From: Gammaproteobacteria bacterium
Lineage (GTDB): Bacteria > Pseudomonadota > Gammaproteobacteria > Steroidobacterales > Steroidobacteraceae
Assembly: GCA_027452045.1 (NCBI GenBank)
Contig: DAIDHH010000141.1
Location: 1-64,000 of the forward strand
Length of the DNA stretch: 64,000 nucleotides
Reading direction: 5' to 3'
Shown: positions 6,840 through 24,558 of the stretch, one piece after another
How the letters are laid out: every line of letters starts with the position of its first letter
Position numbering within the stretch: position 1 is the first letter of the stretch
Notes under the pieces: model-generated
Database searches by the model: none
Told to the model about the DNA's origin: nothing
The model's input: the letters and a program-made list of their open reading frames with translations, nothing else
Translations under genes and position numbers: made by a program

Positions 6840-9302
6840 TCAGGACGAACAGCCCGATGAAAGCCCGGCAGTAGTCGCGGCCCCGCGCAGTATCGCTTGT
6901 GCCTCCCGTTCCACGTGCAACCCATAGGCGGAAGCGGCCGACTTCGCGAGTATGCGCACCGCCAGCACGGCGTGGGGGCGCGCCGCGGCATAACATTTTT
7001 CGCCGACCAAGGCTTGAGCGAGCGCCATTTGGCCGAGCCCGAACATCCGCGATCCGGGCGCAAGTCGATTGCGCAGGCTTTTGAGAAATTCCTCCGCCAG
7101 CGGCTGCGCGTCGCGATATCGTCCGACCGCCGAATAGGCGCGAGACAGATAGTAGAGAATCTCAACCTGATCCGACCTGTCCCCGAGGGCGCGCCGCCAG
7201 GTCGGCAATGCGCCCTCGAGCAGCTTGACCGCCTCGGCCGGCCGTCCCGCGCGGATCAACGCGTCTCCCCAATAGGGCACTTCTTCCAAGGCCTCTGCGC
7301 TCGCCGGCCCCTGGCATTGCACATAGCCGTCGTAGGCCTCGCGAAACAACGGCAGACTCTCGCTGATGCGCCCGCTCTGATTGTCGATCCAGGCCAGCCA
7401 ACCATTCACATTGGCGCGATCGCAAAGCGCCAATGGATCGTCTCGATAACGCTGCCGCAACAGCGAAAAGATCCGTGTCGCGGTGGCGACATGTCCCTGC
7501 ATATCCGCATCAGCCGCGTAATCAAGGAGCGCCAGGTCTTGATCGTTCCGCGGCAAGTGATCGGCGATGGCCGCATGCGCGCTCTTTCGCAACAGTGCGA
7601 GGTTCCCAGGCTTGATGTAGCCGTTGTTGTCCTCGTTGAACGCATAATAGACATCCGTAAGGATGCGCACCCGCGACGATACCGGGTATGCGTGGGCGAG
7701 CCGGAAAGCCTCCGCCGAAAGGGCTCGTCCGGCCGGAACCTCATTGCGGTCGAAATCGATGACCGCAAGATAGATTTCCGCTTCCACACGACTCCCGATC
7801 GCCGCACTGCCGTGGGACAACGCCAGCACCTGGCGCAACGCCGCGCGGGCATCGTCCGTGTCACCGCTCTCGTACATCGATTCCGCGAGTCCGAGCATCG
7901 CTGCACGGAGGTCGGCGGGATCTTGAATATAGGCCGGCAAATTGCGCACCCCGGCGCGCAAGAATTGCGCCACCGTAGCGACCGGCTTCGCCGTGTAATC
8001 GGGATTCGCCATGCGGAACAAGCGATGCATGAAGTTCTGCATGCGCACCGCGCGGTCTGCCTCGCGCAGGGCACGCGCCTGTCCCACCCATGCGTCCGCG
8101 AGGCTCGCGCCGGACACAGCCACGACCAGCACCGCAACCACCAGTGCCACTCGATGGCGGTCGATGAACTTGCGCATGCGATAGCCCGTGGTCTGCGGAC
8201 GCGCCTTGATCGGTTGATGCGACAGATAGCGCTCGAGGTCGTCCCGCAATGCCTCGGCGGAGCTGTATCGTTCCCGCGGATTACTCCGCAGGCAGGTTTC
8301 GAGGATCGTCGATAGATCGCCGCGCAGTTCCTGGTGAGCGCGCCGCGCGGCGCGATCTGCTCGCGGCCGGGCGTCCGCCGCCGCGCGCGCAAGGGATTCC
8401 GGTTCCAGGCCGCGAAGGGCCTTCTCCATGCGCACGACACCCGAGATGTTGCCGAACGGCGCCCGCCCGCAGAGAATTTTGTATAACGTCGCGCCAAGCG
8501 CGTACACGTCGCTCGCGGTGCTCACCGGACGATTCAGCAGCTGTTCGGGGCTTGCAAATGCCGGCGTCGCGACCAAGGTGGCCGTGGACTCACCGTTGGC
8601 CTGGGTCCATTTGGAGGTACCGAAGTCGAGGAGTTTGACTATGCCGCTCTTCGCGACCAATACGTTCGAGGGCTTCAGATCGAGATGCACGATCAGGCCG
8701 CGATGTGCGGCGCTCACCGCGTCGCACACGGTCAGGAAAAGGCGCACCCGGGATTCGATATCGAGCTGACCTTCGTCGCAATAGCGATCGATCGGTAAGC
8801 CATCGACGTACTCCATGACGATGTACGGCTGGCCGTCCTCGGTCGTCCCGGCGTCGAACAAGCGGGTGATGTTCGGATGGTCGAGCGATGCGAGCAGTCG
8901 CCGTTCGCGGTGGAAACGCTCGACGAAGGACGCATCGACGGCATGCGGCGCCAGCACTTTGAGCGCCGCACGAACCTTCGTCTCGGCCAGGATCCGTTCG
9001 ACCAGATACACGGTGCCGACGCCGCCGGATCCGAGTTTCTCGAGCAAGCGATACGGGCCGATCGAGACCGGCGAGAATCCCGCCGCTTCGCCGGCCGAGG
9101 TGTCCGGCGTCGTGAACGCCGGATCGGAGGTGACGCACCGTGCCGAACGCAGCAACGAGCGCACCCGTTCACGCAAACCGAGATCCGCGACCTCGTTCGC
9201 AAGCAATGCCTCGATCGCCGTGTCGTCGAGGCCGTCACAACGATGGAATAGCCGCTGCAACTCAGCCCAATGCGAGGCGTCGTCCGATGCGTGCTTGTCC
9301 AT
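6840..9302 (-). CDS. Serine/threonine protein kinase with TM segment and C-terminal TPR-like region
   Basis: GSGGVGTVY glycine loop, ALKVL lysine, HLDLKPSN catalytic loop, DFG; TM near HRVALVVAVLVVAVSGASLA. Confidence 0.93.
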   Translation of the reverse strand: MDKHASDDASHWAELQRLFHRCDGLDDTAIEALLANEVADLGLRERVRSLLRSARCVTSDPAFTTPDTSAGEAAGFSPVSIGPYRLLEKLGSGGVGTVYLVERILAETKVRAALKVLAPHAVDASFVERFHRERRLLASLDHPNITRLFDAGTTEDGQPYIVMEYVDGLPIDRYCDEGQLDIESRVRLFLTVCDAVSAAHRGLIVHLDLKPSNVLVAKSGIVKLLDFGTSKWTQANGESTATLVATPAFASPEQLLNRPVSTASDVYALGATLYKILCGRAPFGNISGVVRMEKALRGLEPESLARAAADARPRADRAARRAHQELRGDLSTILETCLRSNPRERYSSAEALRDDLERYLSHQPIKARPQTTGYRMRKFIDRHRVALVVAVLVVAVSGASLADAWVGQARALREADRAVRMQNFMHRLFRMANPDYTAKPVATVAQFLRAGVRNLPAYIQDPADLRAAMLGLAESMYESGDTDDARAALRQVLALSHGSAAIGSRVEAEIYLAVIDFDRNEVPAGRALSAEAFRLAHAYPVSSRVRILTDVYYAFNEDNNGYIKPGNLALLRKSAHAAIADHLPRNDQDLALLDYAADADMQGHVATATRIFSLLRQRYRDDPLALCDRANVNGWLAWIDNQSGRISESLPLFREAYDGYVQCQGPASAEALEEVPYWGDALIRAGRPAEAVKLLEGALPTWRRALGDRSDQVEILYYLSRAYSAVGRYRDAQPLAEEFLKSLRNRLAPGSRMFGLGQMALAQALVGEKCYAAARPHAVLAVRILAKSAASAYGLHVEREAQAILRGAATTAGLSSGCSS

Positions 9303-9331
9303 AGGAGCCGGTCACTCGCTTGCGCAACACC

Positions 9332-9922
9332 TCATCCGGCCGGCGCCCCGCCTGCCAATCGTTCGATCAGCCAGGCACGCGCGAATCGCAAGTCGCGGTC
9401 CACTGTGGCCTTGGACATCTTGAGCAGATCGGCGGTCTCCTCCGCGGTCGCACCCAAGAAGAGCCGCAACTCCACCATGCGGGTCTTGCGCGCGTCGATC
9501 AGCTCGAGTTCTTCCAATGCCCGGTCGATGTCCAGCACGTCCGCCGAGGGGCCGACGGTCGTGCCGGCGGTTTCCGGATCGAGCGGAATGCGAATGCCTC
9601 CGTCGCGTTTGTCGCGTCGCTCGGCGCGGGCTGCGTCCACAATGATACGGCGCATCAGCAGCGATCCAAGACTGAAGAAATGTTCGCGATCGGTGAACTG
9701 CAGTCGCCGCTGTTCTGCGAGCTTGAGGAACAATTCATTGACGACGCCGGTTGGCTGCAACAAAGTGGCGGGCGACTCGCCGCGAAAAAGCGCTCCGGCA
9801 ATCTGCCTCAAGCGCGGATAGACAAGAGCGAAAAGCGGGTCGAGTACGGCCGCGTCACCATCACTCCAGCGCCGCAGCAACAAGGTGACATCGCCGTCCG
9901 AACTCACGAATCCGCGCCCCAA
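9332..9922 (-). CDS. ECF RNA polymerase sigma factor
   Basis: Sigma70 region 2/4-like: LFALVYPRLRQIAGALFRGESPATLLQPTGVVNELFLKL...RMVELRLFLGATAEETADLLKMSKATVDRDLRFARAWL. Confidence 0.9.
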   Translation of the reverse strand: MGRGFVSSDGDVTLLLRRWSDGDAAVLDPLFALVYPRLRQIAGALFRGESPATLLQPTGVVNELFLKLAEQRRLQFTDREHFFSLGSLLMRRIIVDAARAERRDKRDGGIRIPLDPETAGTTVGPSADVLDIDRALEELELIDARKTRMVELRLFLGATAEETADLLKMSKATVDRDLRFARAWLIERLAGGAPAG

Positions 9923-10261: not shown

Positions 10262-10552
10262 ATGATCGAACTATTGAAACTTCTCATGGACGGTCTCGTC
10301 CTCCGTGACACGGCCCGCAAGGGTTTGCTCAATTGGAAGGTCGTGCTCACCGGCTTCGGCTTCGTCATTTTCCTCTACGGCACCGGGCTGCCGGCCGGAC
10401 TCCTATACCAACGCAACCCGCGCTACGAGTGGCTATTCATCGCGACGCTGTGCGTCGATGCCATCGCCTTCATTCTCGTTATTGTTTTGGGCACCCGCTG
10501 GTACTTCCGAGCGACGGCAGCCCGCAATGAAAAGAGCCCCACGTCGCAATAG
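10262..10552 (+). CDS. Small membrane protein
   Basis: 96-aa ORF with two hydrophobic stretches (VVLTGFGFVIFLYGTGLPAGLL; WLFIATLCVDAIAFILVIVLG). Confidence 0.5.
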   Translation: MIELLKLLMDGLVLRDTARKGLLNWKVVLTGFGFVIFLYGTGLPAGLLYQRNPRYEWLFIATLCVDAIAFILVIVLGTRWYFRATAARNEKSPTSQ

Positions 10553-10902: not shown

Positions 10903-11422
10903 CATCCGGGCAACGACATTGACAATACCACAGCGCCATTTCGCGTCGAGAACGCGAAATCCGGCACCGATACCGGCTGCAGTGCGAGCGACAGAAAACC
11001 AGCCTTTTTGACATCCGCTCCGAGCGCGACCTGCTCAGCCATCCGAAATGCGGCGCATCCTGGGAAGGCTAAGTGCTCGAGGAGATCTTGAAGAGCGCCA
11101 TATCGTCTATCCCGGATCGCGCGCCCACGAGTCGGCGCCGGGGGTCAAAGTCGTGCCGGTGAGCGCGAACCCTGAGCTCAGCTCATGACGAGCGCGCTGA
11201 AGGAAATCGCACAGGAATTCGGCCGGATCATCGTCGGGCGCACGTTTGCAACGCGCCATCATGCACGACCTTCCCCGACGCGCGCAGCGCTATCGGCCCT
11301 GAAGCGAGCGCTGCAGCTTTGGGCGTATGAGCGCATCCCTTTTGCAAGCCATTTGCAGGAACTGCCCAAGCCTTACCCAATGGCGTCCGTGTCCTGCGCA
11401 GCTTGACAGCGCTCATGCCCGC

Positions 11423-11460
11423 GAGCAGTATTACGAATAGTTAATTCCGTAATACTGCTC
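11423..11460. promoter_or_regulatory. Perfect inverted repeat (13-bp arms, 12-bp spacer), probable operator of the NikR-like regulator
   Basis: GAGCAGTATTACG-aatagttaattc-CGTAATACTGCTC, 20 bp upstream of ATG 11481. Confidence 0.75.
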
Positions 11461-11480: not shown

Positions 11481-11972
11481 ATGAATGACGCGACCGTCCC
11501 ACAGCTTGCACGCCTGAGCGTCAGCCTGCCGAGCGAGCTGCTCGGCGAGCTCGACGCCATGGTGAGCGAGCGTGGCCTGCCGAGCCGCTCCCAAATGATC
11601 GCCGAACTCATCCGGCACGCATTGGCCGAGCATAACGAGGAGCAAGATGAGTCCGTCCTGGCAGGCACGCTCACGCTCATTTACCGCGCGGAGAGCGGCC
11701 GCGTCCGCCAGGCGCTCGCGCAGACTCAGGGCTCCTACGTGGTCGAGATCATCTCTTCGCAGCATGTCCTCCTCGAAGACGACCAGTCCCTCGAAGTGCT
11801 ATTGGTGCAAGGGCCCTCCCGGCGGCTGCACGAGCTTTGCGATGACCTGCGCAAGGTGCGCGGAGTGCAGCAGGTCAAGCTGGTCACCACGACGGCCCTG
11901 CTCCCTCCCCTGCACTCCCATGGCGCCACCGAACCCTCGGCGAGCCCGCGCGCATCCCGGAGTGCCCGATGA
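11481..11972 (+). CDS. NikR-like ribbon-helix-helix regulator with degenerate metal site
   Basis: RLSVSLPSELLGELDAMVSERGLPSRSQMIAELIRHAL (RHH) followed by NikR-C/ACT-like domain; RBS GGGAGG. Confidence 0.85.
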   Translation: MNDATVPQLARLSVSLPSELLGELDAMVSERGLPSRSQMIAELIRHALAEHNEEQDESVLAGTLTLIYRAESGRVRQALAQTQGSYVVEIISSQHVLLEDDQSLEVLLVQGPSRRLHELCDDLRKVRGVQQVKLVTTTALLPPLHSHGATEPSASPRASRSAR

Positions 11973-12796
11973 GCGGCAGCCCCACGAACAGTCCCGCCGG
12001 CGCACGCGCCCACGCCCGCGCGATGAGCGGAACGGTGGTCGAAGCCATGCCGACCGTTCCCGCAACTCTCGGGCGTGCCCCCCCCGGTGTCACTTCCGAT
12101 CGGATGCTGTGGGATGAGACGGTGGGTCCCGGAGGGTACGCCTCGAAAGTTCTCAATCGCGGCGCACACCTCTGCCTTCAGGATTTGCGTGGCGATGCCT
12201 GCGTGTCGATGCTGCTGTTTAACGCCGAGCAGCCGCTCGAGCGGCTGAACGTCGCCGATACGATCAAAGTGCAGTGGAACGCCTATCTTTGCGCCGGCCG
12301 GGTACTGCTTTCGGACATGGGACGGGTACTAGCTAGCATCCTGGAGGACACCGCCGGGACGCACGATGTCTTTTGCGCTCCCTCGAATGCTGCGATCAAC
12401 ACTCGCCGCTACGGCTCGGGAGAGAACTGGAGCGCGCATCCCAATGCGCGAGATCGGCTGCTGCTGGGGGCCGCCAAGCATGGCCTGGGCCGCAAAGACC
12501 TCCACCCCTGCGTCACCTGGTTCAAGGGTGTGAGCGTCGCCGCCGATGGTGCGGTACGCCTCATCGAGGCGCCCGCCCCGGCGGGCCGGCAGATCACGCT
12601 GCGCGCCGAGATGAATCTGATCGTGGTCCTGGCCAATTGTCCCCACGTGCTCGACTCGCGCTCGCGCTACACGGTAACGCCGGTACGCGTGCTCGCGTGG
12701 CGCGGACCCATCACTTCCAGTGACGATCCGATCCGCAACTCGGCGCCGGAAGTAGCGCGTGCATTCCTCAATGTCGAGGAGTATTTCCGCCGTTGA
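11969..12796 (+). CDS. Urea carboxylase-associated protein (UAAP, DUF1989; CgdAB carboxyguanidine deiminase-type subunit)
   Basis: LWDETVGPGGYASKVLNRGAHLCLQDLRGDACVSMLLFNAEQPLERLNVADTIKVQWNAYL...; operon with second DUF1989 and urea carboxylase. Confidence 0.9.
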   Translation: MSGSPTNSPAGARAHARAMSGTVVEAMPTVPATLGRAPPGVTSDRMLWDETVGPGGYASKVLNRGAHLCLQDLRGDACVSMLLFNAEQPLERLNVADTIKVQWNAYLCAGRVLLSDMGRVLASILEDTAGTHDVFCAPSNAAINTRRYGSGENWSAHPNARDRLLLGAAKHGLGRKDLHPCVTWFKGVSVAADGAVRLIEAPAPAGRQITLRAEMNLIVVLANCPHVLDSRSRYTVTPVRVLAWRGPITSSDDPIRNSAPEVARAFLNVEEYFRR

Positions 12797-12826: not shown

Positions 12827-13468
12827 GTGAATGACGCCTTGCCGCCGCTCGAGGGGCGGATCATCCTCGATGAGATCGTGCCAGCTCGCGCCGCATGGGA
12901 CCACATCGTGCGTCGCGGCGAGACCTTGCGCATAGTCGACCTGGAGGGCAATCAGTCGGCGGACTTCCTGCTGTACGCTCTGCACGATGACGCCGAGCGC
13001 TACAGCGCCCAGGACACGATCGCCGCTCAGCGCAATGTCTATCTGACCACCGGAGCGCTCCTCTTGTCCAACGAGGGAAATCCGATGGCCCGCCTCGCGA
13101 GCACCACCGTCGCTCGCCACGATACCATCGGTGGCGCGTGCAGCTGCGAGAGCAACACGCTGCGCTACGGGCACCACACCAAATCTCACCACGCCTGTGT
13201 GGAGAACTTCCTGCAGGCGAATGCGCGTCACGGTCGTGGCAAACGCGACATGGTCTCAAACATCAACTGGTTCATGAACGTCCCTATAGAACAGGACGGG
13301 AACCTGGGAATCGTGGACGGGATATCGGCGCCGGGGTTACACGTCGATCTGCTTGCCGAAATGGACGTGATCGCCGTGATCTCCAACTGCCCGCAGATAA
13401 ACAATCCTTGCAATGCGTTCAACCCGACGCCGCTTCGCGTCATGATCGCCGCGCCCTTGCGAGTTTAG
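12827..13468 (+). CDS. Urea carboxylase-associated protein (UAAP, DUF1989; CgdAB-type subunit)
   Basis: DHIVRRGETLRIVDLEGNQSADFLLYALHDDAERYSAQDTIAAQRNVYLTTGALLLSNEGNPM. Confidence 0.92.
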   Translation: MNDALPPLEGRIILDEIVPARAAWDHIVRRGETLRIVDLEGNQSADFLLYALHDDAERYSAQDTIAAQRNVYLTTGALLLSNEGNPMARLASTTVARHDTIGGACSCESNTLRYGHHTKSHHACVENFLQANARHGRGKRDMVSNINWFMNVPIEQDGNLGIVDGISAPGLHVDLLAEMDVIAVISNCPQINNPCNAFNPTPLRVMIAAPLRV

Positions 13469-13470
13469 AC

Positions 13471-16400
13471 GTGTTCGAGAAAATCCTGATCGCGAACCGC
13501 GGGGTCATCGCCTGCCGCATCATCCGCACGTTGCGCCGCATGGGCATTGCCTCGGTCGCGGTATTCTCGGATGCCGATGAGGGAGGGCGGCACGTCGAGC
13601 AGGCGGATGAGGCGGTGCGGGTTGGTCCGGCGGCGGCCGCCGAAAGCTACTTAAATGCCGCGGCGATTATCGAGGCCGCTCGCCGCAGTGGCGCTCAAGC
13701 CGTTCATCCAGGCTACGGGTTTCTCAGCGAGTCGCCAACTTTCGCCGCGCGCTGTGAAGATGCGGGCCTCGCCTTCATCGGTCCGACGCCGCAACAGATC
13801 CAGGCATTCGGACTGAAGCATGCCGCTCGAGCGCTCGCGCGCCAGACCAAGGTCCCGCTCATTGAAGGCACTGAGGTGCTTGCGGATGTGGAGGCGGCAC
13901 TCGAGCAGGCGTCCCGAGTCGGATATCCGGTGATGCTCAAGGCGACCGCTGGCGGTGGCGGCATTGGCATGCGAGTCTGCGACGATGCGCAGGCCCTTCG
14001 CGATCAGTTCCAGGCGGTCACGCGCCTGGCGAGCAGCCATTTCGGCGATGGTGGACTCTTTCTGGAGCGTTACGTCCGCCATGCGCGCCATATCGAGGTG
14101 CAGATCTTCGGCGACGGCCACGGTCGCATAGCCGCGCTCGGGGAGCGGGACTGCTCGCTGCAGCGGCGCAACCAGAAAGTGATAGAGGAGACGCCCGCGC
14201 CGGGGTTGGACGATGCTGCGCGGGAGCGCCTGCGGGACGATGCGGTGCGATTGATGAAGGCCGTGAGCTATCGCTCGGCGGGCACGGTGGAGTTTCTTTA
14301 CGACAGCGAACGCCGCGAGAGCTACTTTCTCGAGGTGAATACGCGTCTTCAGGTCGAGCACGGCGTGACCGAGCAGGTTTCCGGAATCGATCTGGTCGAG
14401 TGGATGATCCGCTGCGCCAACGGCGAGCGGGCCTTCCTCGAACCGTGGCTCGAATCGTCGGCCTGGGCGAGCCGCGCTCGCGGCGTGTCGATTCAGGCAC
14501 GACTGTACGCGGAGGATCCGGCGCGGGACTACAGGCCCTCGGCTGGCACGCTCTCCAAGGTCGAATTTCCAGCCGGAATCCGCGTGGAATCCGCCGTGAC
14601 CGACGGCAGCAGTATCACCTCTCACTACGATCCGCTGCTCGCCAAGATCATCGTGACGGCGCCGACACGCGCCGCCGCGGTGCAACAGCTCCAACAGGCT
14701 CTCGATCAGACCAAACTCAGCGGAATCGAAACCAACGTCGAATGGCTGCGCGCGGTCGCACGCAGCGAGTCCGTCCTACGGGGCGAACTCTCGACGCGGG
14801 TGCTGCAGACGGTACGGCATGAACCGCGCACGATCCGCGTGGTGAGCGGCGGTCTGTGCACCACCGTACAGGACTATCCCGGCCGTTTGGGCTACTGGAG
14901 CGTGGGCGTGCCGCCTTCCGGACCGATGGACGATCTTGCCTTCCGGCTCGGCAATCGCCTGCTTGGCAATCCCTCCTCGGCTGCCGGGCTGGAGTGGACG
15001 GCCACCGGTCCTACCCTCGAGTTCGATTGCGCGGTGACCCTGTGCCTCACGGGGGCCGACAGCGCAGCGAGCCTCGATGGCCAGCCTCTCGATCGGTACC
15101 GACCCATCGAAGTCGCGCCTGGTCAGCAGTTGAAGCTTGGTCGGCTGCGTGGTCCCGGGATGCGAGGTTACGTACTCGTACACGGCGGGATCGAGACGGC
15201 CGAATATCTCGGCAGCCGCTCAACGTTCACCCTTGGGGGTTTCGGCGGACACGCGGGACGCGCGCTGGCAGCGGGCGACGTGCTGCATCTCGGTCCCCAT
15301 CCGGGCTTCGTGCCCGAAGCCACCCTGCCCGCGGCGCTCATTCCGCAGCTCAGCCGCGAATGGCGGGTGCGCGTACTGTACGGTCCGCACGGGGCCCCGG
15401 ACTATTTCACGGATGAGGATATTCACTGCATACTCAACGCCGCGTGGCGCGTGCACTATAACTCGAGCCGTACCGGCATCCGGCTGCTCGGGCCACGGCC
15501 GACTTGGGCCCGGCGTGATGGCGGGGAGGCAGGGCTTCATCCCTCGAACATTCACGACAACCCGTACGCAATCGGCGCCATCGACTTCACCGGTGACATG
15601 CCGATCATCCTCGGACCCGACGGTCCCTCGCTCGGGGGGTTCGTCTGTCCGTTCGTCACCGTCCGTGCCGATCTTTGGAAGCTCGGACAACTGGCCCCCG
15701 GGGACATCGTGCGCTTCGAGAGCATCGATGAGCCGGCGGCCGCCACCGCCGCGCGCAAGCGCGAGAAGATGCTCACGACGCTGCGTCCGGTGCGGCCCCC
15801 GGCCCACGCTACGCGTGCGCCACGCACTGCCGTGCTGGCTGAGTTGGCCGCGAGCCCTACACGGCCACGCGCACTCTACCGGCGTCAGGGCGACAGCCAT
15901 GTGCTCATCGAGTACGGCGCGCCGGTTCTCGATCTGACCCTGCGCATCCGTGTCCATGCACTGATGCTCGAGTTCGAGCGGCAACGGCTCCCCGGCGTCA
16001 TTGATGTCACGCCCGGTATCCGCTCGCTTCAAATCCATTACGACAGCTCCCGCTTGAGCCGGGCTCGGCTGCTTGATTGCCTCATGCGCACCGAGGAGCG
16101 TCTCGGTTCTCTCGATGCGTTCGAAACCCCATCCCGGGTGGTGCATCTGCCGCTGTCATTTCGCGATCCGGCCGTCGAGGAAACAGTGAGCCGGTACATG
16201 AACTCGGTGCGCGCCGACGCCCCCTGGTGTCCGGACAATATCGAGTTCATTCGCCGCGTCAATGGTCTCGGCAGCCCGGAGGACGTGCGACGCATCGTAT
16301 TCGATGCGAGCTATCTTGTCGTGGGGCTCGGGGATGTGTATCTCGGAGCTCCGGTGGCGGTGCCACTTGATCCCCGCCACCGCCTCGTCACGACCAAGTA

Positions 16401-17103
16401 CAACCCGGCGCGTACCTGGACACCGCCGAACGTCGTCGGGATAGGCGGCGCATATCTGTGCATCTACGGCCTGGAAGGCCCGGGAGGCTACCAACTCTTC
16501 GGCCGCACCATCCAGGTCTGGAACAGTTACCCGCGTGCCGGAGTTTTCGGCGATGAGCCCTGGCTGCTCAGATTCTTCGATCAGATCCGCTTCTTTCCGG
16601 TTACGCCCGAGGAGCTGCGCGCGTGGCGGGCGGAATTTCCCCTTGGGCGACGCACCTTAAGGATCGAGCCCGAGACTTTCCGACTGGCCGATTACCGCCG
16701 CTTCCTTGCCGAGAACCGCGCCGATATCGACGCGTTCCAGAGTCGCAGGCAGCATGCCTTCGACGCAGAACGCGACGCGTGGCAGCGCGATGCAGCAAGC
16801 GCGCCAACTCAGTGCGACAGCACCGATTTGGTGCAACAGCCGATCAACGTCCCTCCGGGGGTAGAGCTGGTGGAAGCGCCGCTCGGCGGCAGCATCTGCA
16901 GGGTTCTGGTCGAGTCTGGAGATCGGATCGAGCGTGGCATGCCCATTGCATTAATAGAGGCGATGAAAAGCGAATGCAGCGTCCCCAGCCCCATCAGCGG
17001 CCACGTGCGCGCCGTGTACGTTCGTCTGAATCAGCCGATCACCCCCGGTGCCCCGCTGGTGGCGATCGAGCCGGTGGCAAATGTGTCCCCCACGGGAGAC
17101 TGA
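13471..17103 (+). CDS. Biotin-dependent urea/guanidine carboxylase
   Basis: GTG start; biotin carboxylase N-terminus FEKILIANRGVIACRIIRTLRRMGIASVAVFSDAD, carboxyltransferase domain, C-terminal biotinyl motif IEAMKSE. Confidence 0.96.
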   Translation: MFEKILIANRGVIACRIIRTLRRMGIASVAVFSDADEGGRHVEQADEAVRVGPAAAAESYLNAAAIIEAARRSGAQAVHPGYGFLSESPTFAARCEDAGLAFIGPTPQQIQAFGLKHAARALARQTKVPLIEGTEVLADVEAALEQASRVGYPVMLKATAGGGGIGMRVCDDAQALRDQFQAVTRLASSHFGDGGLFLERYVRHARHIEVQIFGDGHGRIAALGERDCSLQRRNQKVIEETPAPGLDDAARERLRDDAVRLMKAVSYRSAGTVEFLYDSERRESYFLEVNTRLQVEHGVTEQVSGIDLVEWMIRCANGERAFLEPWLESSAWASRARGVSIQARLYAEDPARDYRPSAGTLSKVEFPAGIRVESAVTDGSSITSHYDPLLAKIIVTAPTRAAAVQQLQQALDQTKLSGIETNVEWLRAVARSESVLRGELSTRVLQTVRHEPRTIRVVSGGLCTTVQDYPGRLGYWSVGVPPSGPMDDLAFRLGNRLLGNPSSAAGLEWTATGPTLEFDCAVTLCLTGADSAASLDGQPLDRYRPIEVAPGQQLKLGRLRGPGMRGYVLVHGGIETAEYLGSRSTFTLGGFGGHAGRALAAGDVLHLGPHPGFVPEATLPAALIPQLSREWRVRVLYGPHGAPDYFTDEDIHCILNAAWRVHYNSSRTGIRLLGPRPTWARRDGGEAGLHPSNIHDNPYAIGAIDFTGDMPIILGPDGPSLGGFVCPFVTVRADLWKLGQLAPGDIVRFESIDEPAAATAARKREKMLTTLRPVRPPAHATRAPRTAVLAELAASPTRPRALYRRQGDSHVLIEYGAPVLDLTLRIRVHALMLEFERQRLPGVIDVTPGIRSLQIHYDSSRLSRARLLDCLMRTEERLGSLDAFETPSRVVHLPLSFRDPAVEETVSRYMNSVRADAPWCPDNIEFIRRVNGLGSPEDVRRIVFDASYLVVGLGDVYLGAPVAVPLDPRHRLVTTKYNPARTWTPPNVVGIGGAYLCIYGLEGPGGYQLFGRTIQVWNSYPRAGVFGDEPWLLRFFDQIRFFPVTPEELRAWRAEFPLGRRTLRIEPETFRLADYRRFLAENRADIDAFQSRRQHAFDAERDAWQRDAASAPTQCDSTDLVQQPINVPPGVELVEAPLGGSICRVLVESGDRIERGMPIALIEAMKSECSVPSPISGHVRAVYVRLNQPITPGAPLVAIEPVANVSPTGD

Positions 17104-17107
17104 GCGA

Positions 17108-18886
17108 ATGCGCACCGATTCGCTGATCGACATTGCCAAGGCGGTCGCGGGGCGCGAAGCGAGCGCCGAGAAAATTGCGCTGCAGGCGCTGCGCAAGGTC
17201 GAAGAGTACGACGCGGTGCAACCGCAGGCGTGGATTGCGCGCTGTGGCGCCATCGAGGTCCTGGCGCAGGCGCGCGAGGTTGACGCCAGGATCGCCGCCG
17301 GAGAAAGCCTGGCGCTGCCGGGCGTGCCCTTTGCAGTGAAGGACAATATCGATGTCGCCGGCATGCCGACCTCAGCGGCGTGCCCGACCTTCTCGTACCG
17401 TGCCGAGCAGTCCGCGGTGGTGGTCGAGCGACTGCGCGCCGCGGGCGCGATCCTCCTCGGCAAGACCAATCTCGACCAATTCGCCACCGGCCTCACGGGT
17501 ACCCGCAGTCCCTATGGGATCCCGGGCTGCGTCTACAATCGCGAATACGTTGCGGGCGGCTCGAGTTCCGGCTCGGCGGTACTCGTGGGCGCAGGCGTGG
17601 TGCCGCTCGCCCTCGGATCTGACACTGCTGGCTCCGGCCGGGTGCCGGCCGCATTCAATCACCTGGTGGGCCTGAAGCCGACCCGCGGCCGCTGGAGCAC
17701 CCGCGGCTTGGTGCCGGCCTGTCGCAGCCTCGATTGCGTGTCCGCTTTCACGCGCACAGCCGCCGAGGCCATTGCGGTCGATCGAGTACTCACGGCATAC
17801 GATGCCGAGGATCCGTATTCGCGCCGGGTCGCCTCGAATGCTTCGCTCGGCGCCGCCTTCCGCCTGGGTGTTCCTCTCGAAGCGCAGCTTTCCTTTTCCG
17901 ACGCAGAGACGCGCGGGCTGTTCGCGGCGGCGCTGGAGCGAGTGCAGAGCCTCGGCGGCATGGTGCACCGCATCGACATCCAGCCGCTGCTCGAGTGCGG
18001 ACAGCTTCTCTACGAGGGACCATGGCTCGCCGAGCGCGCGCTCGCGATCGAATCCATGCTCGCCTCGAGATCGAGCGCTCTGCACCCTGTGGTACGGGCC
18101 ATCGTGCAGGCCGGCTGCGGGATCGGCGCCACCGAGGCGTTCCGCGGGCTGCACTCGCTGAAGAGCCATGCCCGCGCCGCGCAAGCGATCTGGGAGCGTG
18201 TCGATGTGCTGCTTGTGCCGACCACCACGCAAATCCATCGCATCGCCGAAGTGCTCGCCGATCCATTCACGCTTAACAGCCAGCTCGGTCGTTACACCAA
18301 CTTCGTCAACCTTCTTGACTTCAGTGCGCTCGCCGTGCCTGCGGGCTTTCGTACCAATCGCACGCCCTTCGGCGTCACTTTGATGGGTCCTGCCTGGGCG
18401 GACGATGCGCTGCTCGAGCTCGCCATGCGCCTTGAGCACACCCGGCCACTCGAGCCCGCGCCGCCGCTCGATCGGCATGCGCATCCATCCGGCACCCTGC
18501 TCGCCGTGGTCGGGGCGCACCTCTCGGGCATGCCGCTTCATTGGCAGTTGAGCGCCCGCGGCGCACGCTTCATCGAGCGTACCCGAACCGCTGCGACCTA
18601 TCGGCTCTACGCGCTGTCTGAGAGCGCCCCCCCGAAGCCCGCTCTGGTGCACACGAGTCAAGGCGGCAATGCTATCGAGGTCGAGCTCTACGAGCTCGAT
18701 CCGCCCGCCCTTGGCGACTTTCTCTGCGAAGTTCCGCCGCCGCTCGCCATCGGCACGGTGCACCTGCACGATGGGCGAATGGTGCGAGGCTTCGTGGCCG
18801 AGCCGCGAGCCCTGGAAGGTGCACTGGACATCACCGCCAGCGGGGGATGGCGCGCCTATATGGCGGGTCGCGGGAGTTTCTCATGA
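17108..18886 (+). CDS. atzF: Allophanate hydrolase (amidase signature)
   Basis: FAVKDNIDVAGMPTSAACP, GGSSSGSAV amidase motif; directly follows urea/guanidine carboxylase. Confidence 0.96.
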   Translation: MRTDSLIDIAKAVAGREASAEKIALQALRKVEEYDAVQPQAWIARCGAIEVLAQAREVDARIAAGESLALPGVPFAVKDNIDVAGMPTSAACPTFSYRAEQSAVVVERLRAAGAILLGKTNLDQFATGLTGTRSPYGIPGCVYNREYVAGGSSSGSAVLVGAGVVPLALGSDTAGSGRVPAAFNHLVGLKPTRGRWSTRGLVPACRSLDCVSAFTRTAAEAIAVDRVLTAYDAEDPYSRRVASNASLGAAFRLGVPLEAQLSFSDAETRGLFAAALERVQSLGGMVHRIDIQPLLECGQLLYEGPWLAERALAIESMLASRSSALHPVVRAIVQAGCGIGATEAFRGLHSLKSHARAAQAIWERVDVLLVPTTTQIHRIAEVLADPFTLNSQLGRYTNFVNLLDFSALAVPAGFRTNRTPFGVTLMGPAWADDALLELAMRLEHTRPLEPAPPLDRHAHPSGTLLAVVGAHLSGMPLHWQLSARGARFIERTRTAATYRLYALSESAPPKPALVHTSQGGNAIEVELYELDPPALGDFLCEVPPPLAIGTVHLHDGRMVRGFVAEPRALEGALDITASGGWRAYMAGRGSFS

Positions 18887-18905: not shown

Positions 18906-19937
18906 ATGACTAGAGGTTGCATCACCGTGAACGAATCGATCACAAGCCGCGTGCGCCCCGGGGCTTTCAACCACGCCCGAAGCGCGCGTCTTCTCGTGCC
19001 GCTTCTGTGCCTGCTCTTGCCCTCCTTGGCGCGCGCCACCATCAAGGTTGGTGTCTCGGACTGGACCGGGTGGGTGGCATGGTACGTGGCCCGCCAGGAA
19101 GGGTACTTTCAGAAGTACGGTGCGCGGGTGCGGCTCATCTGGTTTCCAAACTACAGCGATTCGATTTCGGCGTTGTCCACGGGGCAGCTCGATGCAAACA
19201 GCCAGACCTGGTCCGATACACTGAGCCCGCTGGCGCGCGGATTGCCCCTTCAGGTCGTGCTGGTAAATGACAACTCTTCGGGAAATGACGCGGTCATGGC
19301 GGGTCCCGCCATCCGTTCCATAGCCGCCTTGAAGGGGCGGACCGTAGCGCTCGAAGAATACAGCGTGTCGCACTTCGTGCTGTATACGGCGCTCGCACGC
19401 GCTGGGATGACTCCTTCGGAGGTTCATCTCGTCAACCTTGATGCGGGCGACGCCGCCGCTGCGTTCATGACCGGACGGGTGGACGCGGCGGTGGTATGGA
19501 ACCCGTGGATCAGTCGCATCGAGGCGAGCGGCACCGGGCACGCGCTGTTTACCTCCAGACAGATGCCCGGCCTCATTCCGGACCTGCTCGTCGCCCAGCG
19601 CGCCTCGATCGCTGCGCACCGCGCCGACTTCGTTGGCATGATCCGTGCCTGGTTCGCCACTGTGGCCTTCATTCACACCCACCCCAACCAGGCAGTGCGC
19701 ATCATGGCGAAGGTGGTGAGCATGAGTCCCGCTCAGTACAAGGTGTTCCTGCCGGGCACTCGCCTGTTCGGCGCTCGGGCGAATCTCGCCGCCTTCGACC
19801 CGCACAATCCGACGAGTCTCGTGGCGGTCGAGCCGGCAATCGCCAAGTTTTTGCGCACTTATCGGCTCATCGAAGGATCCCCGGACCTCGCCCACGCCAT
19901 CGACTCCGCACCGCTCGAACAGGCGTTGCACCGATGA
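18906..19937 (+). CDS. ABC transporter substrate-binding protein (NMT1/SsuA/TauA-like)
   Basis: Signal peptide; IKVGVSDWTGWVAWYVARQEGYFQKYGARVRLIWFPNYSDSISALSTGQLDA. Confidence 0.92.
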   Translation: MTRGCITVNESITSRVRPGAFNHARSARLLVPLLCLLLPSLARATIKVGVSDWTGWVAWYVARQEGYFQKYGARVRLIWFPNYSDSISALSTGQLDANSQTWSDTLSPLARGLPLQVVLVNDNSSGNDAVMAGPAIRSIAALKGRTVALEEYSVSHFVLYTALARAGMTPSEVHLVNLDAGDAAAAFMTGRVDAAVVWNPWISRIEASGTGHALFTSRQMPGLIPDLLVAQRASIAAHRADFVGMIRAWFATVAFIHTHPNQAVRIMAKVVSMSPAQYKVFLPGTRLFGARANLAAFDPHNPTSLVAVEPAIAKFLRTYRLIEGSPDLAHAIDSAPLEQALHR

Positions 19938-20812
19938 GTTCCCCCGAGTCGATCGGTCAGGCCCCCGCCGCCCCCCGCTCGGTCTCGGCGCTCGGGCTTC
20001 CGCCGCCGATGCGCCGCGATCATCAGGGCCTGTGGGTGATCCGCGGCTCGATGAGTTCGCGCCGCTATTGGTGCCTCGCCGCCATCGGCCTTGCCCTGCC
20101 CCTGGTCGGCTGGTTCGCGCTTGCGCGCTTCGGGACGGTGAACCCGGTCTTCTTGCCCGGACCGGCCGCCGTCGCGCGCAGCGCCATCCATTGGCTCACC
20201 CGCGGCAATCTCCTTGACGATACGCGCATCAGCATCTACCGGGTGGTCGCGGGCTGGGCGCTCTCGGCGCTCATTGCCCTGCCGCTCGGACTGTTGATCG
20301 GGACCTATCGAACGATACAGGCACTGCTCGAACCGCTGACGGATTTCATCCGCTACATGCCGGCCGCGGCGTTCATCCCGCTCGTCATGCTGTGGGTCGG
20401 CATCGGAGAGAGCGCGAAGATCGCGATCATCTTCATCGGTACGTTCTTTCAGATGGTGCTCATGATGGCCGAGGACGTGCGTCGTGTGCCGATGGCCCAG
20501 ATCGAGGCCGCCCAGACCATGGGCGCAACGCGCGCCGAGATCCTCGAGAAGGTGATCCTGCCGTCCGCCAAACCCGCGCTTCTTGATACGCTTCGCATCA
20601 CGATGGGCTGGGCCTGGACCTATCTGGTCGTCGCCGAGCTCGTTGCCGCCAATACCGGACTCGGCTACGCCATCCTCAAGGCGCAGCGCTTCCTCGAGAC
20701 CGAGCGAATCTTCTGCGGCATCATCATCATAGGCCTCATCGGCATGGCGATGGACCAGATCTTTCGCCTCGTGCACCGGCTCGCCTTCCCCTGGCTCCAG
20801 ACGAGGACCTGA
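19934..20812 (+). CDS. ABC transporter permease (SsuC/NrtB-like)
   Basis: Hydrophobic; EAAQTMGATRAEILEKVILPSAKPALLDTLR inner-membrane component motif; overlaps upstream stop by 4 bp. Confidence 0.93.
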   Translation: MSSPESIGQAPAAPRSVSALGLPPPMRRDHQGLWVIRGSMSSRRYWCLAAIGLALPLVGWFALARFGTVNPVFLPGPAAVARSAIHWLTRGNLLDDTRISIYRVVAGWALSALIALPLGLLIGTYRTIQALLEPLTDFIRYMPAAAFIPLVMLWVGIGESAKIAIIFIGTFFQMVLMMAEDVRRVPMAQIEAAQTMGATRAEILEKVILPSAKPALLDTLRITMGWAWTYLVVAELVAANTGLGYAILKAQRFLETERIFCGIIIIGLIGMAMDQIFRLVHRLAFPWLQTRT

Positions 20813-20813
20813 C

Positions 20814-21644
20814 GTGCAAGCGATCAGCTGTCGCAAAGTCTGCAAGGTATTCGGGCCCGCAGCCAAGCCCATTGTTGCCTTGCAAAACATCAACCTCGAC
20901 ATCGCCGAAGGCGAGTTCGTTACGCTGGTTGGCGCCTCCGGCTGCGGCAAATCCACCCTGCTGAGAGCCCTCGCCGGTCTGGAGAGCCACTCCAGCGGGG
21001 AGATCTATGCCTCCGGTGCGCCGGTGACCGGCCCGGGTATCGATCGGGCCATGGTCTTTCAGCACTACAGCCTGTTCCCGTGGCTCGATGTTCTCGATAA
21101 CATCAAGTTCACCCGCCAGATTGCCGCACACATCCGCGAGCGCACTTCGGCGGAAGTCGAGATGGCGAGCGGTAGGGCCCAGGCGCTCTTGCAAGTGATG
21201 GGCCTGACCGATGCGGCCCACGCCTATCCCAACCAGCTCTCTGGTGGCATGCAGCAGCGCGTCGCCATCGCCCGCGCGCTGATGGGCCGTCCGCGCATTC
21301 TGCTCATGGACGAGCCGTTCGGGGCGCTTGACGCCCAGACCCGCGAAGTCATGCACGATCTGATCCTGCACGTCTCGCAACTCGAGCGCTGCACCGTCGT
21401 GTTCGTCACGCATGACGTCGAAGAGGCGATCTATCTTGGGCACCGCGTAGTGCTGATGGCCCCGCGCCCGGGACGCATCGAGTGTGAATACCCGGTACCG
21501 CTGCCGGAGCTGCGCGCGCAACACATGAAGTACACGCCGGCCTTTCTCGAGCTCAAGTCGCGCATCATCGGACAGATTCGCGCCACCTCGGGCATCAAGA
21601 CCGATAGCGAGCTGCTCGAGAAGCTCGCCCGCCGCAGTGCCTGA
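20814..21644 (+). CDS. ABC transporter ATP-binding protein (SsuB/NrtD-like)
   Basis: Walker [10 protein letters not shown], signature [15 protein letters not shown], Walker [13 protein letters not shown]. Confidence 0.95.
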
Positions 21645-21847
21645 CGGCCGCTTCGGGCCTGCGCAACAATTGTGCGTCCCGCCCACGCATTGCGCCGCGA
21701 TGGTGCGCCAGGGAGTCGAGGAACTTCGGGCAGCCGCGCTCGGCGACAGCCAACGACACGCTAAATCCCGGATTTCGCACGACGTAACTTGCGGCGCACG
21801 TCGTCGTGATCGTTGGCATGTAGTTTGCAAGTTACTCATTGGATAAC

Positions 21848-21972
21848 GTGCTTCTAGGGTTCCGGTCCCCGCAAATGGGATGTCTGGTCCGAGAGAGGCA
21901 GTCCGTTGTGGCAGCGGCAGATCGAACGGCCGCTCTACCCGGATACACGGCGGGATAAAAGCCCGGGAGATC
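21848..21972 (+). ncRNA. ykkC-type guanidine-I riboswitch aptamer
   Basis: CTTCTAGGGTTCCGG...GTCTGGTCCGAGAGA...ATACACGGCGGGATAAAAGCCCGGGAGA, matching the ykkC consensus blocks in correct order and spacing. Confidence 0.95.
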
Positions 21973-22095
21973 TTCTGTCGAGGAGGCTTGGCATCCTCGG
22001 GATGGTCTTCCGTTTTGCGGCCGCGCCATCCCGAATGCGACCTCGCTCTCCTCGACTGTGCGAACAGTGCATCAGAATTCAGGAGACGACTCGCT

Positions 22096-24558
22096 GTGAA
22101 TGCAAATGTCCCCCGGCTCTTCAGCGCCACCTGCCGCCCACTCGCCCGCCGCCTCGCCCCGCTCAGCGCCGCGGTGCTCACCGCGCTCTACGGTGCGCAC
22201 ACGCTGGCCGCTGACGCCCCGCCGGATCCGCCCACACGGTTGCGTGAAGTGATGGTCACCGCAACCCGACACCGGATTTCGGCGCAGGACCTGCCGCTCA
22301 GCATCACTGCCGTTACCGGCTCTCAGCTGGTGCAGCAGGGTATCGGCAACATATCCGGCCTCGCCCATTCCCTGGCCGGCGTCAACTTCGCTGACAAGGG
22401 ACCCTTCGGTGGCGTCAACGGCTCGACTCTCATCATCCGCGGCTTGAACAGCGAGGCAACCGCCGGACAGCTGGCCCTCGCCACGCCCATCGTCCCGCCG
22501 GTCTCGATCTATGTGGACAATACGCCGCTGTTCGTAAACCTGCGCCTGCAGGATCTGAAGCGGGTCGAGGTCCTGCGAGGTCCCCAGGGAACCCTCTACG
22601 GGTCCGGGGCGCTCGGCGGCATGATCCGCTTCGTACAGAATCCGCCCGATCCGAAGGCGTTCGATGCCCGCGCGGAAATTGGGGTTAGCGACACCGCGCA
22701 CACGCACGAGCCGAACGAAGAAGCGAGCGCCATTCTCAACATTCCGCTCAGCAAGGACCTCGCCGTGCGGCTCGATACGAGCTGGTCCGAGGACGCCGGG
22801 TTCATCAACCAACCGGATCTGTACAAGCTGGACTCCTCCGGCGCGCCGGTGCTCGCCCAGCCCGGGAACCCGCTCTCGAGCCCACCGGTCACATACGAGC
22901 AGAAGGGAACCAATCTCTATACGTACAAGGCCGCCAGAATCTCGACGCAGTGGCAACCGAGTTCCCGGTTCACCACCCGCCTGTCGTACTATTACCAGCT
23001 CTCGGTCGCGAGCGGCTTCCCGTACTCCTCGGTGCGCCTGGGAGTGGACAACCTCGCGTCCACGGACCATACGCTCGCCTCGGCGAATGACAAGGTCGAT
23101 GTCGCCTCGCTCAGCCTGGAGTACGACTTCGGCTTTGCGACGCTCAGCTCGAATACCTCCTGGTCCCGGCACGATAACCTCTCGAGCGGCGATTTGACCG
23201 CCTTGTACGATGACTTCTCGTTCTATCCCTCGCTCTACGGGGCGAGCCCGCGCGTGCTGGTCACCGGGCACGATGAGCTCTATGACGAGCCCTGGACCGA
23301 GGAGCTGCGCCTGGTTTCGCCCACCGGTGGCACCTTGGAGTGGGTGGCCGGATTCTATTACCAGAACGAAAAGACCGATATCCGCGAGCATGAGTTCTAC
23401 CCCGGATATCTCAACTACTTCAATGCCTGCGCGCCCGTGTACGGAGTGAGCAATGGCGACGGCGTCACACCCTCGCAATGCGGGATCGGGGAAACCGCCT
23501 ACAGCCCGGCCCCCCTCAACTACGTGGATGGCATTCCGATCATCAAGGATCAGGCGTACATCGGTGACTTCGAAACACGCTTCAAGGACATGGCGGTGTT
23601 TGCAGATCTGACGATCAATCTGACCCACAGATGGAGCGTGACCGGTGGCACACGCGTCTTCAGGCAGACGCTCTCTCAGGCACAGCAGACCGGTCTGCTG
23701 TTCGACGGTCCCGGATCCATCGCCAATAACACGCTGCGCGCTGCCTGGCAACGGGCGCTGTGGAAGCTCAATACCGCCTATCATCTGAATCACTCGACGC
23801 TCGCCTACGCCACGTGGTCACAGGGATTCCGTCGCGGCAGCGTCAATGCCCTGCCACCGACGGAGCCGGCCGTGAACTACGTGACCGACCCGCGCCTGTA
23901 TAAGGTTGCGCCTGATACCGCGGACAACTACGAGCTCGGGCTGAAGGGCACCGTCGATGATCTGCTGAGCTACTCGGTCGATGTTTACGACATCCAGTGG
24001 CACAACGTGCAGGAGGGGGCGCAGCTCACGCCCCTGGTGCTCCCCGGGGCGATTAATGTCGGCGATGCATTCAGCCGGGGCCTTGAATCGGAGCTGTATG
24101 TCGGCTTCACCGACAATCTGACCGGTACGCTCGATTACACCTATGACCAGACTCGTCTCACCGCCCTCACCCCCTACGCGATCGCGGGACTGGCCGTGGC
24201 ACCGCCCGCCGTCGGCGCACCGCTCCCTGGAACCCCGAAGAACAGTCTCGCCGTGGGACTCAATTATGGCTTCGGGCTCGGACGGGCGCGGATGCACCTG
24301 ATGCTCGATGCCCACTACCAGAGCTCGCTGGTGCCCGCCCTGTCAGCCACCATTCCGACCGTTGCCGGATATACTCTGGTGAATGCACGTCTCACCTACC
24401 ATCGGGCGCATTGGCTGATCGCCCTGTACTGCGACAATCTGACCAACCGGCTTGGAATCAACTCCTATGAGGATCCATTCAATTATGGGGTCGACTATCA
24501 GGCGCTGGTGACGACGCCGCGAACGATCGGTCTCACCGTGGCGTATTCGCTGCGGTGA
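22096..24558 (+). CDS. TonB-dependent outer membrane receptor (predicted guanidine-regulated)
   Basis: GTG start with AGGAGA RBS; TonB box/plug: LREVMVTATRHRISAQDLPLSITAVTGSQL...VEVLRGPQGTLYGSGALGGMIRFV; C-terminal beta-barrel TIGLTVAYSLR. Confidence 0.93.
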   Translation: MNANVPRLFSATCRPLARRLAPLSAAVLTALYGAHTLAADAPPDPPTRLREVMVTATRHRISAQDLPLSITAVTGSQLVQQGIGNISGLAHSLAGVNFADKGPFGGVNGSTLIIRGLNSEATAGQLALATPIVPPVSIYVDNTPLFVNLRLQDLKRVEVLRGPQGTLYGSGALGGMIRFVQNPPDPKAFDARAEIGVSDTAHTHEPNEEASAILNIPLSKDLAVRLDTSWSEDAGFINQPDLYKLDSSGAPVLAQPGNPLSSPPVTYEQKGTNLYTYKAARISTQWQPSSRFTTRLSYYYQLSVASGFPYSSVRLGVDNLASTDHTLASANDKVDVASLSLEYDFGFATLSSNTSWSRHDNLSSGDLTALYDDFSFYPSLYGASPRVLVTGHDELYDEPWTEELRLVSPTGGTLEWVAGFYYQNEKTDIREHEFYPGYLNYFNACAPVYGVSNGDGVTPSQCGIGETAYSPAPLNYVDGIPIIKDQAYIGDFETRFKDMAVFADLTINLTHRWSVTGGTRVFRQTLSQAQQTGLLFDGPGSIANNTLRAAWQRALWKLNTAYHLNHSTLAYATWSQGFRRGSVNALPPTEPAVNYVTDPRLYKVAPDTADNYELGLKGTVDDLLSYSVDVYDIQWHNVQEGAQLTPLVLPGAINVGDAFSRGLESELYVGFTDNLTGTLDYTYDQTRLTALTPYAIAGLAVAPPAVGAPLPGTPKNSLAVGLNYGFGLGRARMHLMLDAHYQSSLVPALSATIPTVAGYTLVNARLTYHRAHWLIALYCDNLTNRLGINSYEDPFNYGVDYQALVTTPRTIGLTVAYSLR

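Follow-up and report, generated by a model that had tools for sequence, protein, structure and literature searches.

A NikR relative with a dismantled nickel site as a candidate repressor of guanidine carboxylase operons

Introduction

The closest described relatives of the regulator presented here are the NikR proteins, such as those from E. coli (b3481), P. horikoshii (2bj1), and H. pylori (2ca9). In these proteins an RHH domain is joined to a NikR_C domain holding the high-affinity 3His-1Cys nickel site, and their targets are genes for nickel uptake or nickel enzymes.

To our knowledge, genes are controlled by guanidine through riboswitches alone, and we know of no guanidine-sensing protein with such a role. 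Guanidine-binding regulatory proteins are named as a possible future discovery in a 2025 review (PMC12186494), which also assigns an Asp to guanidine carboxylases and an Asn to urea carboxylases at a diagnostic motif position. In the guanidine carboxylase operon (gca, cgdA/B, atzF, and ABC importer genes), PMC12508155 gives cgdA/B as the carboxyguanidine hydrolase subunits. No open-access paper tying NikR or CopG proteins to urea or guanidine carboxylase operons was found.

A NikR descendant without the nickel site

The window, meaning the whole stretch of 64,000 nucleotides that was analysed, encodes the following regulator:

11481..11972, + strand: NikR-derived regulator of 163 aa, RHH and NikR_C domains, nickel ligand positions G/H/L/S

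A Pfam search places RHH_1 at residues 11-49 (6e-8) and NikR_C at residues 61-137 (4e-20), both above the Pfam cut-offs, and this combination is the architecture of NikR. P. horikoshii NikR (2bj1) matches the protein with an E-value of 3e-24, and the metal region aligns without gaps both to it and to E. coli NikR, the sequence of which was taken, together with the nikA operator, from the MG1655 record. The two alignments agree that the ligands H76, H87, H89, and C95 (E. coli numbering) correspond to G84, H95, L97, and S103, which leaves one of four ligands in place and no 3His-1Cys site, just as the original prediction had read by eye. Its claim of an intact RHH domain also held: the base-reading positions (R3/T5/T7 in E. 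coli) are R/S/S here, by which the DNA-binding strand is judged intact. The protein scores 102.6 bits against the NikR equivalog NF003381 from NCBIfam, narrowly below the cut-off of 105, and 62 against TIGR02793, where the cut-off is 175. The nickel site was looked for and is missing, and the regulator is therefore classed as a NikR-derived variant and not as a NikR; judged by its sequence, it is related to NikR but its metal site has been dismantled. A single-sequence AlphaFold model reached a pLDDT of 48, too low for the model to be of use.

The regulator is the sole NikR homologue in the window genome, an assembly that is about 75% complete. Another genome of the same genus holds an ortholog (71%, ligands SHLS) and, as a separate gene, a canonical HHHC NikR. 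Further members were collected by scans of the class and the phylum of the window, the phylum scan giving two score groups, with the clade at 193-227 bits and all others at 93 or below. Cys95 is absent from all 28 sampled clade proteins, which have S, T, I, or V instead, while the canonical NikRs compared are HHHC in 49 of 49 cases. The histidine ligands have eroded in many ways within the clade (HHHT, RHHT, HNNT, YNNT, SNNI, GHLS), and only a few members, for instance those at loci L038 and L040, keep all three. Further canonical positions are changed as well, among them E. coli E30, part of the potassium site of that protein, which is replaced by Q, and R33, which is replaced by A.

In a tree built with the ligand columns removed, one branch with support of 98/98 separates the 28 clade proteins from the 49 canonical NikRs; the inner branching order is soft because just 126 columns were available, and the canonical sequence nearest to the clade is P. 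horikoshii NikR. The idea of a repurposed NikR without a nickel site is supported by the clade-wide loss of ligands, the support of the clade, and its linkage to guanidine operons.

Orthologs are also found in Acinetobacter and on plasmids of Novosphingobium, Sphingobium, and Asticcacaulis, where those annotated are named just CopG family proteins. On plasmid pSA1 of Novosphingobium resinovorum (L050), the regulator gene is present twice within a single locus (8336-8941 and 11953-12456), and an operator lies near the start of each copy.

The associated guanidine operon

The regulator gene is the first of an apparent operon that continues with the following genes:

11969..12796, + strand: UAAP1 (DUF1989), carboxyguanidine deiminase subunit; TIGR03425 300 bits, cut-off 206; start overlaps the regulator stop
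12827..13468, + strand: UAAP2 (DUF1989), carboxyguanidine deiminase subunit; TIGR03424 323 bits, cut-off 285
13471..17103, + strand: guanidine-type "urea" carboxylase; TIGR02712 1730 bits; motif GAIDFTGD, with Asp; start codon inferred
17108..18886, + strand: allophanate hydrolase; TIGR02713 725 bits, cut-off 511; start codon inferred
18906..19937, + strand: ABC importer substrate-binding protein; TIGR01728 above cut-off, TIGR03427 below cut-off
19982..20812, + strand: ABC importer permease; PF00528; start codon approximate
20814..21644, + strand: ABC importer ATPase; PF00005

We take UAAP1 and UAAP2 to be the cgdA/B products of PMC12508155, and the gene content is that of a guanidine carboxylase operon. 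The motif GAIDFTGD of the carboxylase has Asp where the urea carboxylase of K. lactis has Asn, which by the rule in PMC12186494 is the guanidine form. Urea is disfavoured as a substrate because of this Asp and of the neighbouring UAAP1/2 genes, and guanidine is the more likely one. Accordingly, where the original prediction had the regulator controlling a guanidine or urea operon, the guanidine part is supported by linkage, Asp, and UAAP1/2, and the urea part has become less likely. Four operons with an Asn-form carboxylase (L120, L168-L170) lack UAAP1/2 and have neither the regulator nor the guanidine-I riboswitch (Gd-I); L130 is an exception, in which an Asn-form carboxylase occurs yet with UAAP1/2 and Gd-I.

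This association extends to most of the clade. A guanidine "urea" carboxylase (UC) cluster lies beside the clade member in 23 of 27 loci and in none of 24 canonical NikR regions. The remaining loci are a contig end (L042), two with the same ABC importer and a glutamine synthetase-like gene (L044 and L139, the latter also with a creatininase-family gene), and L142, with creatininase-family and glutamine synthetase-like genes only. No nickel genes are among the operon genes identified, and the linkage of the regulator is to the guanidine carboxylase operon and not to nickel transport or nickel enzymes.

A creatininase-family gene and, after it, a type III glutamine synthetase-like gene form a module that recurs next to the regulator (L038, 7605-9756; L041, 7376-9676; L139, 7294-9485; L142, 10420-12578). 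In most cases this module stands behind the same ABC importer, and it may be a clue to the ligand. Elsewhere in the window, the - strand carries at 6840-9922 a gene for an ECF-type sigma factor (TIGR02999), and then a large serine/threonine kinase-like gene.

Operator and promoter geometry

Upstream of the regulator gene, two elements were located:

11403..11408, + strand: TTGACA, likely -35 element, read from the sequence; a 17-nt spacer leads to a -10 at 11426-11431 in the left arm of the operator
11428..11455, no strand assigned: operator GTATTACGAATAGTTAATTCCGTAATAC, a perfect 7+7 palindrome with N14; extended arms GCAGTATTACG/CGTAATACTGC

At up to three mismatches, this is the sole site in the window for the motif GTATTAC-N14-GTAATAC. 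Since the motif was first spotted in the window, its real test lies in the other loci and in a scan of spacings. With at most one mismatch, 21 sites occur in 556 kb of clade loci, against 0.05 expected in shuffled sequence, and none either in 376 kb surrounding regulator-free carboxylase genes or in 421 kb surrounding canonical NikRs; at two mismatches, the three sets give 47, 3, and 2 sites, respectively. Among all spacings from 4 to 25, enrichment was seen at N14 alone, and nearly all clade loci have this one type of operator. A chance palindrome is ruled out by the site counts and the spacing scan.

The hexamers of the operator stand 16 bases apart, as in the layout used by NikR, with a single base-pair change in each half-site. 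At L142, the regulator has retained Thr as its second base-reading residue and its site the GTATGAC form (GTATGAC-N14-GTCATAC, 10369-10396), whereas the other clade members have Ser there and mostly GTATTAC-type sites. This one case is suggestive of a covariation between base-reading residue and half-site, and L142 may represent a transitional stage in the change of operator.

The window has TTGACA 25 nt ahead of the operator start, and the -10 element consequently overlaps the operator. The same arrangement of -35 element and operator is found at the orthologous locus L037; a simple consensus promoter scan gave the window promoter no score. In gamma-type loci, most operators are directly preceded by a sigma54 -24/-12 element (TGGCAC-N5-TTGCT), which has a background of 5% of random segments and which puts the operator at about the start site. 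Because the operator overlaps the -10 element in the window and follows sigma54 promoters elsewhere, a role as activator is hardly possible, and promoter geometry indicates that the regulator is most likely a repressor.

Exchange with guanidine riboswitches

Gd-I stands at the head of all 32 complete UAAP-containing carboxylase operons without the regulator, 16 of 16 in the class of the window and 16 of 16 in a second class, which was sampled afterwards as a test and in which 14 riboswitches were detected by a strict string and two (L183 and L185) by a relaxed one. With the regulator, Gd-I was found at the head of 2 of 23 operons, both from Acinetobacter, where the operator precedes the riboswitch; the window operon has no guanidine riboswitch at its head. 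Detection relied on conserved strings for L054, L056-L058, L146, and the whole second class, and on a covariance model elsewhere. A Fisher test of regulator against Gd-I gave 7e-11, a value computed before L183 and L185 were reassigned and on related operons, which do not count as independent. Across the carboxylase tree there are about five changes of label between regulator and Gd-I, at least three of which are forced by well-supported branches, as exemplified by the sister operons L043 (regulator) and L134 (Gd-I) within one family. By this mutual exclusion, the regulator takes the role that Gd-I otherwise has in the control of this operon.

Guanidine-II riboswitches stay inside several regulator operons (L040, L041, L043, L141). 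As these are kept, and Gd-I is also present in Acinetobacter, guanidine is already sensed in those operons.

Gd-I does occur further downstream in the window:

21843..21971, + strand: guanidine-I riboswitch (RF00442, 85.9 bits, cut-off 63), ahead of a TonB receptor gene
21991..24558, + strand: TonB-dependent receptor under this riboswitch; approximate start position

The same-genus relative L037 likewise has Gd-I (7170-7281) ahead of a TonB receptor gene, an order that suggests guanidine-controlled uptake across the outer membrane. The window receptor is just 25-32% identical to receptors near other operons, and for this reason they are not claimed to be the same gene.

Proposed mechanism and alternatives

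This regulator is probably a metal-independent NikR descendant acting as an operon-specific repressor that is released by guanidine or a close derivative. A NikR-type oligomer would sit on GTATTAC-N14-GTAATAC across the promoter from which its own operon is read, blocking transcription of the genes for the carboxylase, the carboxyguanidine deiminase, the allophanate hydrolase, and the ABC importer. When guanidine or a close derivative accumulates, it would bind at or near the former nickel position and release the repressor. In many relatives, repression would be layered on a sigma54, nitrogen-starvation promoter. The regulator would replace riboswitch control of the same operon. Guanidine is proposed as the ligand because the regulator exchanges with a guanidine-specific riboswitch. 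That this guanidine sensor arose from a dismantled NikR nickel site and a one-base-pair shift of the half-site, and replaced Gd-I several times, is somewhat the better bet.

The same repressor might instead respond to methylguanidine, carboxyguanidine, allophanate, creatinine, or another imported amidine or urea compound, which is rather unlikely. A guanidine derivative is nonetheless a serious rival because of the guanidine-II riboswitches, next to which a further signal of another kind would be reasonable, and of the members L139, L142, and L044, which belong to ABC and/or creatininase-glutamine synthetase modules apart from UC. In addition, a 2OG-Fe(II) oxygenase gene and its neighbour at L055 from Acinetobacter are positioned as the methylguanidine genes are in PMC12508155. 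However, the regulator alternates with Gd-I, and in that paper the Gd-I of V. boliviensis was shown to be specific for guanidine as against methylguanidine.

Two further readings would dispense with such an inducer. The sigma54 promoters, which tie the operons to nitrogen control, would suit a repressor that is free of ligand or follows nitrogen status through its autoregulated level or a partner protein. This is improbable, as conservation of the C-terminal domain is good, and I91, S92, L98, L108, Q110, and P142 are invariant and specific to the clade, as expected of a binding domain, and as no guanidine riboswitch was found at several loci (e.g. L050-L053, L140, L143-L145), which would leave them with no other known substrate control. 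Sensing of nickel at a changed site, or of another metal, by which metal supply would be coupled to a nickel-free nitrogen pathway, had been offered in the original prediction and is now very improbable: the members that keep H76, H87, and H89 (HHHT, at L038 and L040) might bind metal weakly, but the ligand positions vary across the clade to N, Q, Y, G, S, A, L, and F (HHHT, HNNT, YNNT, SNNI, GHLS) with the operon and the operator unchanged, two of the genomes have a canonical NikR as a gene of its own, and the operons lack identified nickel genes. Nickel sensing through a shifted site was rejected as the main reading on account of this free variation. Sensing of a small molecule, such as guanidine, is thus favoured over coupling to metal status.

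Comparison with known systems

The clade offers a concrete and widespread candidate for a guanidine-responsive regulator with a defined operator. It also provides a clean case of a metalloregulator turned apparently metal-free, with intermediates (HHHT, RHHT, HNNT, GHLS) and a matching change in the operator, and the occurrence of the same operon under RNA or protein control makes for a natural comparison.

With NikR, the regulator shares the two domains, the base-reading Arg of the RHH domain, and the operator layout of nikA, GTATGACGAATACTTAAAATCGTCATAC (GTATGA-N16-TCATAC), with 16 bases between the hexamers. Unlike NikR, its 3His-1Cys site is dismantled, E30 and R33 are changed, its half-site is GTATTA instead of GTATGA, a difference of one symmetric base pair per half-site, and its target is a guanidine operon. 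The guanidine-I (ykkC) riboswitch leads the operons that lack the regulator; it controls the same operon, and a sigma54 promoter of the same type mostly precedes it, but it is an RNA acting after initiation and not a DNA-binding protein at the promoter. As for the guanidine carboxylase operon of PMC12508155 and PMC12186494, the window matches it in gene content and in the Asp-type carboxylase, and differs from it, as far as the accessible portions of both papers go, in having a NikR-like regulator, which those portions do not mention, and in carrying an operator at its head in place of a riboswitch.
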